From the NCBI RefSeq assembly GCF_900115225.1, contig NZ_FOVR01000003.1, forward strand, positions 126,017 to 190,016: a DNA stretch of 64,000 bases. The letters are read 5' to 3'. A program made the position numbers and the translations under genes. The stretch is from Cohaesibacter marisflavi (GTDB lineage Bacteria > Pseudomonadota > Alphaproteobacteria > Rhizobiales > Cohaesibacteraceae). Shown here in pieces: positions 1-40,547 of the stretch (position 1 is its first letter; each line of letters starts with the position of its first letter). The notes beneath the pieces are model-generated. The model was given only the letters and a program-made list of their open reading frames with translations. It was not told the DNA's origin and did no database searches.

Positions 1-93
1 AGCAACAATGGCAAGAGCAATGCCAACAGCAACGCGTCAAGCAACAACGGCAAGAGCAATGCCAACAGCAACGCGTCAAGCAACAATGGCAAG
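1..93 (+). repeat. 39-bp in-frame tandem repeat
   Basis: Copies at 1-39 and 40-78 differ at one silent base (aat/aac Asn codon at position 9 versus 48). A partial third copy runs from 79 to 93. The unit is a multiple of three, so copy-number change would lengthen or shorten the protein without a frameshift. More copies probably lie to the left of the window. Confidence 0.85.
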
Positions 94-5818: not shown

Positions 5819-7918
5819 TCAGGACACTTCAATATATTGGCCGCGATCCGTTCCCGTTTTCAGGCCGAAATCATCGGCCGCAGGCAGGCGATCAGACTGG
5901 CCTGCGCTGCGTTGTGGCTGCATGCGATCCTGAGCGGCGGCGCGAACGGTTGGCGCAGCTCCGTCACCGGTCTGCCCCGATGCTTCGCCCGGAGCAATCA
6001 GGCCTGCGGCCTCGGCCAGAACGGCGCGGAAGTGATCGCGAGTTTCGCTGTTGTTGGTATCCTCGGCGGCCATGGCGCGCAGGGCCTCGGCTATGCGCGG
6101 ATTTTCTCCCAGCGTACGCTCAGCCCCGTTGCTCCCTGCTCCGGCCGTCGGCTCGTTGGAAAAGGAAGCCGGTTGAGATGGTCGTTGTGGCGCGCGTTGC
6201 GCCCCTGAGCCATTTGACATACGCGATGACGTGGCCGATCGGGAGGACGGGGCCGAAGGCGCCTGTAGGCGGGATTGCTCGGGGAACTGGGACAGGCGAT
6301 CAACAGGCGAAGCACGGTTTGGTGTCGGTTCATTGCCGCCCCCAGACATGCGCGCCACCTGCGAGGGGCGTATCGCCGGACGAGGGGCTGCAGCGGCCTG
6401 TTGCTGCTGAGAGACGGTTCCTGCTTGCAAGGGGCCTCGCATCGTGGCCGGATTGCCCTTCAGTGCCTTGGCTGGCGCGAAATGATCCCCTTGGGCCAGA
6501 TGCACATTATAGTCGATCAGATTGACCAGATCGCGCTCGCTTTCAACATGGGTGACAATCAGGTCCATGCCTTTGCGTGAAAGCAGGCGAGAAAAGTCGG
6601 CAGGGTGAATATCAAGCCCGCGACCGGCTTCCCGATGGGTCAGGATCGGCGCGGCGATCTTGGCGAATTTGACGCCTTTCTGGGCGAACTCGTCAAAGCC
6701 GGCAGCCAGATTGGTGACGCGGTCTACCGAGAAGCGGAAGCCCATGGAGCTGAGCAGCTTCAGGGTCTCTTCTTCCATCAACCCGAATTTGCGCAGATCA
6801 GCCTGCGAGAATTCAAGAATCACATGGGGGGCCAGATCACGGTTCTGATCGAACAGATCCCGCATCAGGGCAAAGAAATCGCTATCGGCAAGGCTCTCCA
6901 GCGCGAGATTGCAGAACAGCTCCACCGGATGGCCCCGATCTGACAGACGGCGCAACAGGCGGAATGCCTCATTGACGGCCAATCGATCCAACATGGGCAG
7001 GAAGCCGTTCTGGCGACAGACCGGCAAGAAGATGTCTGGCGTAATCACCTCGCCATCGTCGGTCTTCAGCCGTGTCAGGGCTTCGTAATATTGCGGTTTG
7101 CGCATAGGCAGGGCAACGATCGGCTGCATGAACAGTTCGATATGGCCAAGGGCCAGAGCACGACGCACCTTGGCTTCGTCTTCCGACGTCACCGGTTGTT
7201 CCCTCGTCTCTGCAAATGGGCCAGTTGGACCTCCATCTGTCGCTGCGGGTGGCGGCGACGGGCGGTTCCCCTGCTCCTCGGCATAAGGTTGGACATGAGA
7301 TTGGGTTGGCGCTGGTTGTTCCTCGGGTTCATCATACCGACGCGCGGGCTCGGAATAGCTCGGTGCAACGGGCTGGGCCACAGGCTGGACGGGCTTCTCA
7401 GCCGGTCTTTCATGTCTTGCGGACAGAGAGCGCGCGTTGGCGCGCAGATGTTCCTCCAATTCCTTTACGGAACTGGTGGCGGCAATCAGCTTGGCGTTGA
7501 CCTCGGCCACCTGCCCTTCGCCCTGCTGCATACGCTCATCAAGATCAGCGCAGCTCTCGGCCAGTTGCTTGACCAGCGTACCTATCACATCCAGCTCTGC
7601 CAGAATGGGTTCCACCTCTTTTTCAAGGCGGCTAGCTACGGTGCTATCGAGCTCGCGCGCCATTTCGCGCACATCCTGCACTTCCTTGGTCAGGGCCAGT
7701 TTGAGGCGAGTAAGATCATCCATCTGCTCATCGAGCATCATGCGATCACGCACGCGGGAAATCTGGTAATGCACCAACAGCAGCGTCAGCAGAATACCGA
7801 AGGAAAAAGGCGAGGCCTCAGTTATGGACAACCCGAGTTTGAAATGCAAAATGGCGCCGACAGACAAAGAGATGGCGACCATACAAATGGCGATAAAAAC
7901 GGCCCCTAGCCTTTGCAT
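5819..7918 (-). CDS. Membrane-anchored protein with coiled coil and degenerate EAL domain
   Basis: 699 residues. Two hydrophobic helices (about 5-30 and 38-52) are followed by a coiled coil (about 60-165), a Pro/Gln/Glu-rich linker (about 170-250), an EAL-like domain (about 255-500) and a long Ser/Pro/Ala/Gln-rich tail. EAL domains hydrolyse cyclic-di-GMP with a set of acidic metal ligands. Here the EAL residues themselves (YYEALTRLK), an Asn (FCNLALES), a Glu (ILEFSQ) and a later Glu (THVESE) remain. The usual DDFG loop reads SVDRVTN, losing the second Asp and the FG. This suggests a c-di-GMP sensor or scaffold rather than an active phosphodiesterase. The coiled coil suggests oligomerisation. 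It stands alone with long non-coding sequence upstream. Confidence 0.82.
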   Translation of the reverse strand: MQRLGAVFIAICMVAISLSVGAILHFKLGLSITEASPFSFGILLTLLLVHYQISRVRDRMMLDEQMDDLTRLKLALTKEVQDVREMARELDSTVASRLEKEVEPILAELDVIGTLVKQLAESCADLDERMQQGEGQVAEVNAKLIAATSSVKELEEHLRANARSLSARHERPAEKPVQPVAQPVAPSYSEPARRYDEPEEQPAPTQSHVQPYAEEQGNRPSPPPAATDGGPTGPFAETREQPVTSEDEAKVRRALALGHIELFMQPIVALPMRKPQYYEALTRLKTDDGEVITPDIFLPVCRQNGFLPMLDRLAVNEAFRLLRRLSDRGHPVELFCNLALESLADSDFFALMRDLFDQNRDLAPHVILEFSQADLRKFGLMEEETLKLLSSMGFRFSVDRVTNLAAGFDEFAQKGVKFAKIAAPILTHREAGRGLDIHPADFSRLLSRKGMDLIVTHVESERDLVNLIDYNVHLAQGDHFAPAKALKGNPATMRGPLQAGTVSQQQQAAAAPRPAIRPSQVARMSGGGNEPTPNRASPVDRLSQFPEQSRLQAPSAPSSRSATSSRMSNGSGAQRAPQRPSQPASFSNEPTAGAGSNGAERTLGENPRIAEALRAMAAEDTNNSETRDHFRAVLAEAAGLIAPGEASGQTGDGAAPTVRAAAQDRMQPQRSAGQSDRLPAADDFGLKTGTDRGQYIEVS

Positions 7919-38412: not shown

Positions 38413-40104
38413 ATGACAGAGTCGAACGGAACTGAAGTGAGCGAACTTCCTGAACGCGAAAGCATGGAATTCGACGTGGTGATCGTTGGTGCAGGGCCTG
38501 CCGGGCTGTCTGCCGCCATTCGCATCAAGCAACAGGCAGCCGAGAAGAATGAAGACATTTCGGTAGTGGTTCTGGAAAAGGGCTCGGAAGTGGGCGCGCA
38601 TATTCTTTCCGGCGCGGTGATTGATCCGGTGGCACTCAGTCGCCTTATCCCCGACTGGAAAGAAGATGAAAGCTGCCCGGTGAAAGTGGCTGTCAAGAAA
38701 GACAAGTTCCGCCTGCTCGGACCTGCCGGCGCGATCGGGCTTCCCGGCTTCATCATGCCGCCGCTGATGCATAACCACGGCAACTATATCATTTCTCTTG
38801 GCAATCTGTGCCGCTGGCTGGCCGAAAAGGCCGAAGAGATGGGCGTGGAAGTCTATCCCGGTTTTGCCGCCGCAGAATTGCTCTATGACGACAAGGGCGC
38901 GTTGCGCGGGGTCGCCACCGGTGACATGGGCCTTGGCAAGGATGGCCAGCCCAAGGACACTTACATGCGCGGCATGGAGCTTTTGGGCAAATATACATTC
39001 ATCAGCGAAGGCGTGCGCGGGTCGCTGGCCAAGCAGTTGATTGCCAAATATGCCCTGGACAACGATTGCGATGTGCCGAAGTTCGGCCTTGGCATCAAGG
39101 AAATATGGGAAGTCGATCCGGCCAAGCATCAGGAAGGTCTGATCGAACACACCTTCGGCTGGCCACTGGACAGCTCCACAGGCGGCGGCTCCTTCCTCTA
39201 TCACATGGAAGACAATCAGGTTGCCGTAGGTCTTGTGGTCTATCTCAACTACAAGAACCCGTATCTTTCCCCGTTTGAAGAATTCCAGCGCTTCAAGACC
39301 CATCCGACAGTCCAGCCACTGTTTGAAGGGGGCAAGCGCCTTTCCTATGGCGCCCGCTGTATCGCCGAAGGCGGCTATCAGTCCGTGCCGCGCCTCACCT
39401 TCCCCGGTGGAGCGCTGATCGGATGTGCGGCAGGCTTTGTCAATGTTCCGCGCATCAAGGGCATTCATAATGCCATGGATTCGGGCATATTTGCAGCAAA
39501 CGCCGTTGTTAATGCCTTGATTGAAGGACGCGCCAATGACGAGCTTGTCACCTTCGAGGAAAGCTGGCGCAAGGGCCCGATTGGCAAGGATCTGTTCAAG
39601 GTACGCAACGTCAAGCCACTTTGGGCCAAACTGGGTCTGTTTCTCGGCGTCGGCCTTGGTGGTCTCGACATGTGGACCAACACACTGTTCGGATTCTCAT
39701 TCTTTGGCACACTGGCTCATGGCAAAACGGACGCGAAGGCCACCCTGCCCTCAGCCCAGTGCAAACCAATCGACTATCCCAAACCGGATGGCGCTATCAC
39801 CTTTGATCGCCTGAGTTCGGTTTATCTCTCGGGTGCCAACCACGAGGAAGATCAACCTTGCCATCTGGTGGTTGCCGACGAGGCCCTGCAGAAAAGTTCC
39901 GAGCATGATGTCTATGCCGGTCTTTCCCAGCGCTTCTGTCCGGCGGCGGTTTATGAATGGGATGAAAGCGGCGATGAGCCGAGCTATGTCATCAACGCCG
40001 CCAACTGCGTCCATTGCAAGACTTGTGACATCAAGGACCCGAACGGCAACATTACATGGACCGTACCGGAAGGCGGTGGAGGGCCAACTTATCCGAACAT
40101 GTAA
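38413..40104 (+). CDS. Electron transfer flavoprotein-ubiquinone oxidoreductase
   Basis: A 563-residue inner-membrane-associated enzyme that passes electrons from ETF (fatty-acid and amino-acid oxidation) to ubiquinone. The FAD-binding loop is DVVIVGAGPAGLSAA (about 20-34). A central catalytic/ubiquinone region includes GVRGSLAKQLI. The 4Fe-4S ligands are C509, C532, C535 and C538 (RFCPA and NCVHCKTC). The C-terminal tail after C538 is DIKDPNGNITWTVPEGGGGPTYPNM. AAGGA precedes the ATG. The gene is complete and in full-length agreement with the family. The tail coding sequence with its stop is repeated downstream in a 143-bp tandem array beginning inside the C538 codon. Confidence 0.96.
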   Translation: MTESNGTEVSELPERESMEFDVVIVGAGPAGLSAAIRIKQQAAEKNEDISVVVLEKGSEVGAHILSGAVIDPVALSRLIPDWKEDESCPVKVAVKKDKFRLLGPAGAIGLPGFIMPPLMHNHGNYIISLGNLCRWLAEKAEEMGVEVYPGFAAAELLYDDKGALRGVATGDMGLGKDGQPKDTYMRGMELLGKYTFISEGVRGSLAKQLIAKYALDNDCDVPKFGLGIKEIWEVDPAKHQEGLIEHTFGWPLDSSTGGGSFLYHMEDNQVAVGLVVYLNYKNPYLSPFEEFQRFKTHPTVQPLFEGGKRLSYGARCIAEGGYQSVPRLTFPGGALIGCAAGFVNVPRIKGIHNAMDSGIFAANAVVNALIEGRANDELVTFEESWRKGPIGKDLFKVRNVKPLWAKLGLFLGVGLGGLDMWTNTLFGFSFFGTLAHGKTDAKATLPSAQCKPIDYPKPDGAITFDRLSSVYLSGANHEEDQPCHLVVADEALQKSSEHDVYAGLSQRFCPAAVYEWDESGDEPSYVINAANCVHCKTCDIKDPNGNITWTVPEGGGGPTYPNM

Positions 40105-40496
40105 GGATGTCACAATTCCTTTTGCCGATAAGCTTATCTCGCGGGCGAGCCTCGCGAGGCTTATCTGGTGACATCAAGGACCCGAACGGCAACATTACAT
40201 GGACCGCACCGGAAGGTGGCGGCGGGCCGACATACCCCAATATGTAAGGATGTCACAATCCCTTTTGCCGATAAGCTTATCTCGCGGGCGAGCCTCGCGA
40301 GGCTTATCTGGTGACATCAAGGACCCGAACGGCAACATTACATGGACCGCACCGGAAGGTGGCGGCGGGCCGACTTATCCGAACATGTAATGGTCCATGC
40401 TTTCCTGACGATAGGCTTCTCATGCGGGAACCCCGCATGGCCTATCTGATGACCGCCCCAGAAGGCGGAGGCGGACCGACATACCCAAATATGTGA
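40025..40496 (+). repeat. 143-bp tandem array of the ETF-QO 3' end with hairpin spacers
   Basis: Copies begin at 40025 (the gene's own end), 40168 and 40311, each starting GTGACATCAAGG. The first two units are exactly 143 bases; the third is about 138 and leads into a shortened fourth copy of the tail (about 40449-40496). Each copy encodes the last residues of ETF-QO up to PEGGGGPTYPNM and a stop codon (40102, 40245, 40388, 40494). The first 39 bases are identical in copies 1-3. Spacers 1 and 2 differ at one base; spacer 3 is diverged but keeps the same nested hairpin. Copies 2-4 have no own ribosome-binding site or start and lie in other frames than the gene, so they are not called as genes. 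Confidence 0.95.
40127..40165. repeat. Nested stem-loop in spacer 1 of the array (repeated at 40270-40308 and, diverged, at 40410-40446)
   Basis: Outer stem GATAAGC/GCTTATC and inner stem CTCGCG/CGCGAG. A still more distant pairing, GATGTCAC (40106-40113) with GTGACATC (40168-40175), encloses both. The version at 40270 is the same. The version at 40410 has GATAGGC/GCCTATC and CATGCGGG/CCCGCATG, so three paired positions have changed on both sides while pairing is kept. No T-tract follows, so it is not a standard terminator. Confidence 0.85.
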
Positions 40497-40516: not shown

Positions 40517-40547
40517 AAAGAAAAAGCCGAGCTTGTTGCCCGGCTTT
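40517..40547 (-). terminator. Rho-independent terminator of cheZ (minus strand)
   Basis: AAAGCCG and CGGCTTT pair around an 11-base loop and the minus-strand product ends in TTTTTCTTT. It lies 43 bases after the cheZ stop. A second, shorter hairpin (GCCTGCG/CGCAGGC) lies nearer the stop at about 40571-40588. Confidence 0.75.

Follow-up and report, generated by a model that had tools for sequence, protein, structure and literature searches.

The gene for electron transfer flavoprotein-ubiquinone oxidoreductase (ETF-QO) in the window, i.e. the whole stretch of 64,000 nucleotides analysed here, is followed by a tandem array in which the end of the gene is repeated. The array is composed of two kinds of unit, types A and B. 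An array of this build is best explained, with about even chances in our judgement, by very small units without an ORF of their own which enter protein-coding genes near their 3' ends, are moved or exchanged between alleles and are placed by a short antisense segment.

The array behind the ETF-QO gene

The entered gene, ETF-QO, occupies 38413-40104 on the + strand, as do all features of the array (ORF with Pfam matches PF05187 and PF21162). Tandem Repeats Finder reported one array here, with a period of 143 at 40025-40390 (93% matches, score 662). Reading of the sequence placed the starts of the tail copies at 40025, 40168 and 40311, their stops at 40102-40104, 40245-40247 and 40388-40390, and a fourth, shortened tail at 40451-40496, 3' of the array delimited by the program. 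The first-pass annotation of this DNA had proposed the same starts, the 143-bp spacing and a shortened fourth copy ending at 40496, and both program and sequence bear this out. It had also placed the start of the array within the codon of Cys 538 and had noted that 143 is not a multiple of three. Both points hold: the first unit starts within TGT at 40024-40026, and in the ORF list the tail copies occupy different frames. Overlooked were the antisense segment, the second unit type and the other genes.

In general, a unit consists of the gene tail with its stop, an antisense copy of the entry site of about 10 nt, a pyrimidine-rich linker of about 10 nt and a hairpin (CGATANGC...GCNTATCT), after which the tail follows again. 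ETF-QO was entered at two places and each unit type holds the antisense of its own place. The type A entry site, TTGTGACATC, is located at 40023-40032; the tail copies restart within it, at its GTGACATC (40025). The working tail, copy 0, extends from 40025 to 40104. The antisense segment GATGTCACAA at 40106-40115 is the exact reverse complement of 40023-40032. It is followed by hairpin 1 (CGATAAGC...GCTTATCT; 40126-40166) and tail copy 1 (40168-40247). The second unit has its antisense segment (GATGTCACAA) at 40249-40258, hairpin 2, identical in sequence to hairpin 1, at 40269-40309, and tail copy 2 at 40311-40390. In the third spacer (40391-40450) the hairpin and the entry point are unlike those of the first two. 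Here, the type B antisense GGTCCATG (40392-40399) is the reverse complement of CATGGACC (40341-40348), which straddles entry site B. Hairpin 3, of type B (CGATAGGC...GCCTATCT), is at 40409-40447, and the shortened tail copy 3 (40451-40496) restarts further into the tail, at GACCG, and ends with the stop TGA at 40494-40496. Strong hairpin folds were predicted in all three spacers (z -3.06, -3.06 and -2.82). By type, the array reads A-A-B in the window's own genome, A-B-A-B in G012, A-B-B-B in G011 and B in G003.

The next gene downstream, on the opposite strand, had a weak CheZ match only (40 bits compared with a cut-off of 257), and no mobile-element gene was among the ORFs listed at 36-44 kb of the window. 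A separate GC-rich hairpin lies at about 40523-40547, 3' of the last tail copy. At the edge of the window (1-93) an imperfect 39-bp tandem repeat was seen (AGCAACAATGGCAAGAGCAATGCC...).

Several other explanations were considered. An artefact of draft assembly is unlikely because ETF-QO tail copies of the same kind are present in the single-contig genomes G010, G011, G012, G013, G015 and G017. The hairpin was rejected as an intrinsic terminator since no T run is directly 3' of it. A search for known RNA families gave two matches only, far below threshold. Rescue of frameshifts by the next tail was discarded: the spacer frame is open in the window, but contains a stop in the spacer of Cohaesibacter celericrescens.

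ETF-QO ends in related genomes

The first-pass annotation had suggested an alignment of the regions downstream of ETF-QO in related genomes. In a first scan the closest relative was C. celericrescens (L003, taken as the same assembly as G001). It carries five identical tails with a period of 142, the same entry point and a different spacer; identity of the tails is as expected from slippage or recent homogenisation. Across the genus, the ETF-QO end was readable in 16 of 18 genomes, the gene being broken across contigs in G006 and G007, which are outside the counts. A hairpin together with a tail copy was present in 14 of these 16 ends, with a degraded copy in G002. The ETF-QO of G005 has the antisense segment and a degraded hairpin and is devoid of a tail copy; that of G008 is empty, and its entry site reads TGCGATATC. 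Two genomes from other genera of the family had no unit at ETF-QO. A second ETF-QO gene was noticed in G017 (L103; C1:194372-196060). At the protein level it shares 98% identity with the query; an antisense segment is retained 3' of the stop, hairpin and tail copies are absent.

The hairpin family and other genes with units

Other genes with repeated 3' ends, a search which the first-pass annotation had also suggested, were indeed found. The pattern of the hairpin foot retrieved more arrays, many of them tandem at 106-114 bp, which adjoin the 3' ends of L-serine dehydratase, a 3-hydroxyisobutyrate-dehydrogenase-like gene (mmsB; its protein was below every NCBIfam cut-off), MsrA and RecQ; the layout behind a DUF1706 gene, with another hairpin, is described below. 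The repeated gene end starts 24 to 78 nt before the stop, varying with gene and unit type. Judged by sequence, the unit order recurs behind at least six different genes.

In 29 aligned hairpins the lower stem is 100% paired, its variable pair is compensated in 15 of the 29, and the covariation score was 0.428 compared with 0.120 after shuffling. On this covariation, the hairpin is a real family. A covariance model yielded 100 matches in 17 of 18 Cohaesibacter genomes. By coordinates, 85 of them are behind five genes, i.e. ETF-QO (34), serine dehydratase (37), mmsB (7), msrA (6) and recQ (1). The remaining 15 are elsewhere, 14 of them in G002, a genome in which intergenic repeats carry dispersed hairpins as well. 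With strict filters, an order-wide search gave matches in 17 of 297 genomes, ten Cohaesibacter and seven of one other genus. Inspection of seven loci in this other genus disclosed a central intergenic hairpin in five, a hairpin near the start of the stretch in L199 and none in L202.

Occupancy, scored by eye, differed from gene to gene. Of 18 genomes, 13 have serine dehydratase filled and G001 retains a degraded remnant; the ends in G005, G006, G007 and G017 are empty. mmsB is filled in nine of the 16 parsed genomes, partial in G009 and empty in six (G013 and G014 were unparsed and are outside the counts). msrA is filled in four of 17 genomes and empty in 12; G001 has a hairpin without a tail. 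A RecQ unit was observed in one genome.

Two related arrangements were encountered. L157 and L158 (G002 C2:461500-480500 and C3:258500-262500) as well as L197-L201 and L203, from another genus of the order, contain dispersed repeats between genes in which two hairpins succeed each other, CTCACGGC...GCCTGCGAG followed by a CGATACGC or CGATCAGC hairpin. The outer arms pair, and the second hairpin resembles that of the gene-end units. In L155, L156, L096 and L098 hairpins are arranged head-to-tail at 47-48 bp with no gene tail between them.

The antisense segment spans the entry point

The longest stretch perfectly complementary to the final 110 nt of the gene had a mean length of 9.2 nt in 30 first units (ETF-QO, mmsB, msrA and recQ), compared with 5.0 nt in letter-shuffled controls. 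The observed sum of 276 exceeded all 200 shuffled sums, the highest of which was 165. An entry point can be set in 25 of these units; in 24 of them the complement extends across it. Its distance to the hairpin is mostly 8-11 nt. Serine dehydratase is excluded from both figures; its complement is shorter (GCCCGCC) and spans the entry point in three of the seven units for which this point could be set.

Does the antisense follow the gene of its own species? It fitted the own gene better than the orthologues in ETF-QO (p 0.0012, 14 species), mmsB (p 0.0065, 10 species) and msrA (p 0.009, five species), p values which shared ancestry makes too small. In serine dehydratase no such effect was seen (p 0.88, 14 species). 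The fourfold-degenerate base before TGT in ETF-QO is instructive: all four bases occur among the 12 type A genomes and, by eye, the antisense is complementary in 11, the exception being G002. In msrA the sites of four species are all different, and the antisense segment matches in each of the four. Counter-examples are mmsB of G015, in which the antisense is un-updated, the degraded mmsB of G008 and the mismatch in ETF-QO of G002. Taken together, these alignments show that the antisense segment extends across the entry point and, in three of the four genes tested, corresponds to the gene of its own species.

Silent differences and divergence at the entry site

Between working tail and first downstream copy we counted 115 silent and 18 non-silent differences in 37 species-loci. 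Expected were 34 silent differences with one neutral copy, and 54 if the working copy changed at silent positions and the other copy freely. The p value of 5e-5 for the silent excess is the floor of 20,000 simulations, which assumed uniform substitution. All copies found gave 234 silent and 52 non-silent differences. The counts miss degraded copies that were read by eye (ETF-QO of G002, serine dehydratase of G016, mmsB of G002). Some last copies have lost the stop, their remaining changes being mostly silent. The silent excess speaks against duplication followed by decay; it fits ends which worked in different alleles while these diverged.

A second line of evidence comes from comparisons between species. 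In ETF-QO of G000 and G017, 10 of 25 codons after the entry site differ silently compared with four of 85 before it, and the last 43 codons upstream of the site have zero differences. In eight close species pairs, filled loci had 97 of 350 silent-different codons in the tail compared with 337 of 1850 upstream (p 5e-5, too small because species are shared between pairs; 'filled' includes pairs with only one species filled). Empty loci had 32 of 181 compared with 182 of 919 (p 0.78). The spike is carried by ETF-QO (46/175 vs 78/595) and serine dehydratase (27/70 vs 113/700). Among the close pairs it is absent in mmsB (20/85 vs 119/465) and msrA (4/20 vs 27/90), and single pairs such as G003-G012 are without a spike in ETF-QO as well (1/25 vs 12/85). 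In ETF-QO and serine dehydratase, therefore, these codon counts show a jump of silent divergence at the entry site.

A check of displaced ends against sister species gave one case. Over 45 nt, the working tail of G000 is 2 nt from downstream copy 1 of G016, 4 nt from the working tail of G016 and 5, 9 and 12 nt from its own copies. These distances are as expected if a new end had entered in front in one of the genomes, and are only suggestive.

Repeated gene ends beyond the hairpin family

A scan for repeated gene ends that was independent of the hairpin model covered 400 kb of G000, 600 kb of G002 and 200 kb of G012, with 3337 ORFs of at least 100 codons, overlapping frames included. Of nine matches, four were of the unit type: serine dehydratase twice, ETF-QO in G002 and the DUF1706 gene in G002. 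The other five resemble ordinary repeats or chance frames. The DUF1706 gene has an unrelated hairpin, CCTGCGTGC AGGA GCACGCAGG. Its antisense CCCAGCGC is directly 3' of the stop and is directed against GCGCTGGG; the copy restarts at TGGG and has seven silent differences vs one non-silent.

A repeated ETF-QO tail was present in eight of 79 other Hyphomicrobiales loci, each with an antisense tail copy after the stop (Allorhizobium, two Rhizobium, Paramesorhizobium, two Ochrobactrum/Brucella, Paenochrobactrum and one MAG). The inverted-repeat scores were 32.5-48.5 in the eight and at most 30.5 in the other 71. The threshold of the scan misses degraded copies, one of which L080 seems to hold by eye. 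In this Rhizobium-type form the inverted part covers much of the tail, and a gene-independent hairpin was not seen. First copies had 10 silent and two non-silent differences, all copies 16 and 11. Brucella pseudintermedia (L070) has a single ETF-QO tail followed by sequence like that 3' of the right copy in L049. With strict filters and at E 1e-5, a covariance model of the Rhizobium-type unit matched four of 397 genomes: L338 with antisense and tail copy, L336 with antisense and a degraded copy, L337 and L339 without a clear copy.

Two further observations concern this group of loci. L049 and L051 contain, after the ETF-QO stop, a further palindrome CATTTCC...GGAAATG in the linker between the antisense and the right tail; it resembles common intergenic repeats of Rhizobiales. 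In L074 (complement of 7230-7646) the acetate kinase tail is repeated 3' of the stop together with a hairpin, ATGGCCGC AACA GCGGCCAT. It has a complement of only 6 nt and was not counted as a member.

Possible mechanism and alternative explanations

How might such units operate? We infer that a unit brings the tail of another allele or strain. The antisense would pair with the top strand of the gene across the entry point and so position the unit. The gene would retain a working end and the old end would be displaced downstream. Repeated entry and unequal exchange would then generate arrays. The joining enzyme would have to act in trans; candidates are a nuclease recognising the conserved foot of the hairpin, or strand-annealing enzymes of the host with single-stranded DNA as substrate. 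The first-pass annotation had proposed insertion of an element that carries the gene end. This idea fits better than its null of slippage in view of the layout at other genes, the silent differences and the spike in two of four genes; movement, guidance by the antisense and an order of arrival with the leftmost copy as the newest are conjectural parts of our reading. Put more broadly, the units may belong to an alphaproteobacterial class of ORF-less mobile units of about 100-150 bp, in which an antisense of about 10 nt spans the insertion point, the last codons of another allele restore the gene, a new antisense is acquired at each site and spread in conserved gene ends is harmless. This we propose tentatively, as the less probable, wider form of the reading.

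A reverse transcriptase that tracks the arrays was not found in the 18 genomes: RVT_1 (PF00078) is present in eight and absent from G000 and from the five-unit G001. Y1_Tnp (PF01797) is present in nine of the 18 and absent from the unit-bearing G003, G004, G009, G011, G013 and G014. Self-homing of an mRNA end by a reverse transcriptase, attractive for its geometry, was rejected because G000 has no RVT_1, as was a Y1/RAYT transposase as mover because its presence does not track the arrays.

Template switching at palindromes is an established process, and the arrays could have arisen from it with no dedicated element at all. A hairpin or palindrome 3' of the stop would stall replication; after snap-back of the nascent strand the tail would be copied first inverted and then direct, giving an order like that of tandem inversion duplications of very small size. 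The arrays, the continued match of the antisense and the silent differences would be later products of slippage, quasi-palindrome correction and inter-strain recombination. This we regard as a serious possibility, though not a probable one. Both forms are direct-inverted-direct, and in the eight of 79 other Hyphomicrobiales loci the inverted part covers much of the tail and a gene-independent hairpin was not seen, as pure snap-back predicts; the candidate enzymes RVT_1 and Y1_Tnp do not track the arrays, and the tail copies of G001 are identical. However, snap-back of a gene's own sequence would not yield the same hairpin foot behind five different genes, and the distance between antisense and hairpin is nearly fixed. 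The silent excess, furthermore, needs copies that once were working ends of different alleles, so recombination between strains has to be added. Entry of units and snap-back can be mixed.

The two remaining explanations leave the tail copies to slippage. According to one, which we consider improbable, the segment functions as an RNA structure of the 3' untranslated region, in which pairing of the antisense with the coding end of the mRNA would, together with the hairpin, protect the transcript or regulate it; the tail copies would be by-products. The predicted mRNA fold does pair antisense and gene end, changes in the stem are compensated, and the Rhizobium-type form has 13 transitions which preserve pairing in the sense of the mRNA, compared with 4 of the opposite kind. 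Such a structure would sit uneasily with the patchy occupancy of msrA, mmsB and serine dehydratase. It does not predict a silent excess between copies, and nearly every intact hairpin behind these genes has a tail copy, msrA of G001 being the exception. The other, plain tandem duplication by slippage with decay of the silent copies, was the null of the first-pass annotation. An exact tandem period and the five identical tails of G001 agree with it; the 115 silent vs 18 non-silent differences of the first copies, an antisense that follows the gene and the same layout at unrelated genes make it very improbable.

If units of the proposed kind do enter genes, they would be mobile units pared down to three parts, namely a gene tail, an antisense address and a hairpin, which enter conserved genes without breaking them. 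The displaced ends would be a readable record of past entries, and strains of these bacteria could exchange gene 3' ends separately from the remainder of the gene. Should snap-back be correct, the arrays would still offer a set of small, naturally occurring direct-inverted-direct rearrangements at recurring sites, on which models of snap-back could be tested.

Comparison with known systems

A description of such bacterial units was not found in searches of an open-access library of papers. Integron cassette arrays have attC hairpins and a GTTRRRY core at the crossover point. They are similar in being arrays of units that each end in a folded site with pairing outer arms, and a unit that entered at the front would shift those already present further back. 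By contrast, the arms here vary from gene to gene and the units hold only a gene tail; by eye, the listed entry sequences contain no GTTRRRY core. Prophages and islands integrate at gene 3' ends and restore the end. There as here the incoming DNA supplies the end of the target gene, but the present units are of about 105-143 bp, have no integrase and contain antisense and hairpin. Tandem inversion duplications formed by snap-back have direct-inverted-direct order, and a related model has reportedly been proposed in yeast (PMC4689423). The units have the same order. They differ in being very small, with an inverted part of mostly about 10 nt in Cohaesibacter, and in the hairpin in between, which is common to several genes. 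Retroelements (group II introns, retrons, DGRs) are defined by a reverse transcriptase, and PF00078 is in only eight of 18 genomes. MITEs are defined by a short target duplication of fixed length, whereas the repeated end begins at the variable distances from the stop given above.

REP/BIME palindromes with their RAYT transposases served as a further comparison (PMC6006769; PMC3733652). The likeness is in short hairpins behind genes, sometimes both dispersed and tandem, as in G002. A GTAG or CGTC tag at the hairpin foot is given there as the defining feature of REPs (PMC3733652); none was among the conserved columns of the 29 aligned hairpins with their flanks. The units also differ in their independence of a Y1 transposase and in that each carries the end of its adjoining gene.

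The nearest concept found is that of the mobile ORFs (mORFs) of fungal mitochondria, which bring with them a gene end of foreign origin (Allomyces atp6; Glomus atp6, atp9, cox2 and nad3) (PMC3630166). In these, the C-terminal copy of the mORF takes over and the native end is displaced downstream, about 1 kb away; the ends differ in DNA and hardly in protein, and mORFs encode a homing endonuclease (PMC3630166). An endonuclease gene was not seen in the 143-bp units of the window, the ORF list having only frames of about 60 amino acids shared with the tail copies. The Cohaesibacter units thus differ from mORFs, as there described, in their size, in having no ORF of their own, in antisense and hairpin, in their tandem arrays and in being bacterial. 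The likeness is in the relation between the two ends: an incoming and a displaced end that differ in DNA and little in protein, as in the 37 first copies compared here.
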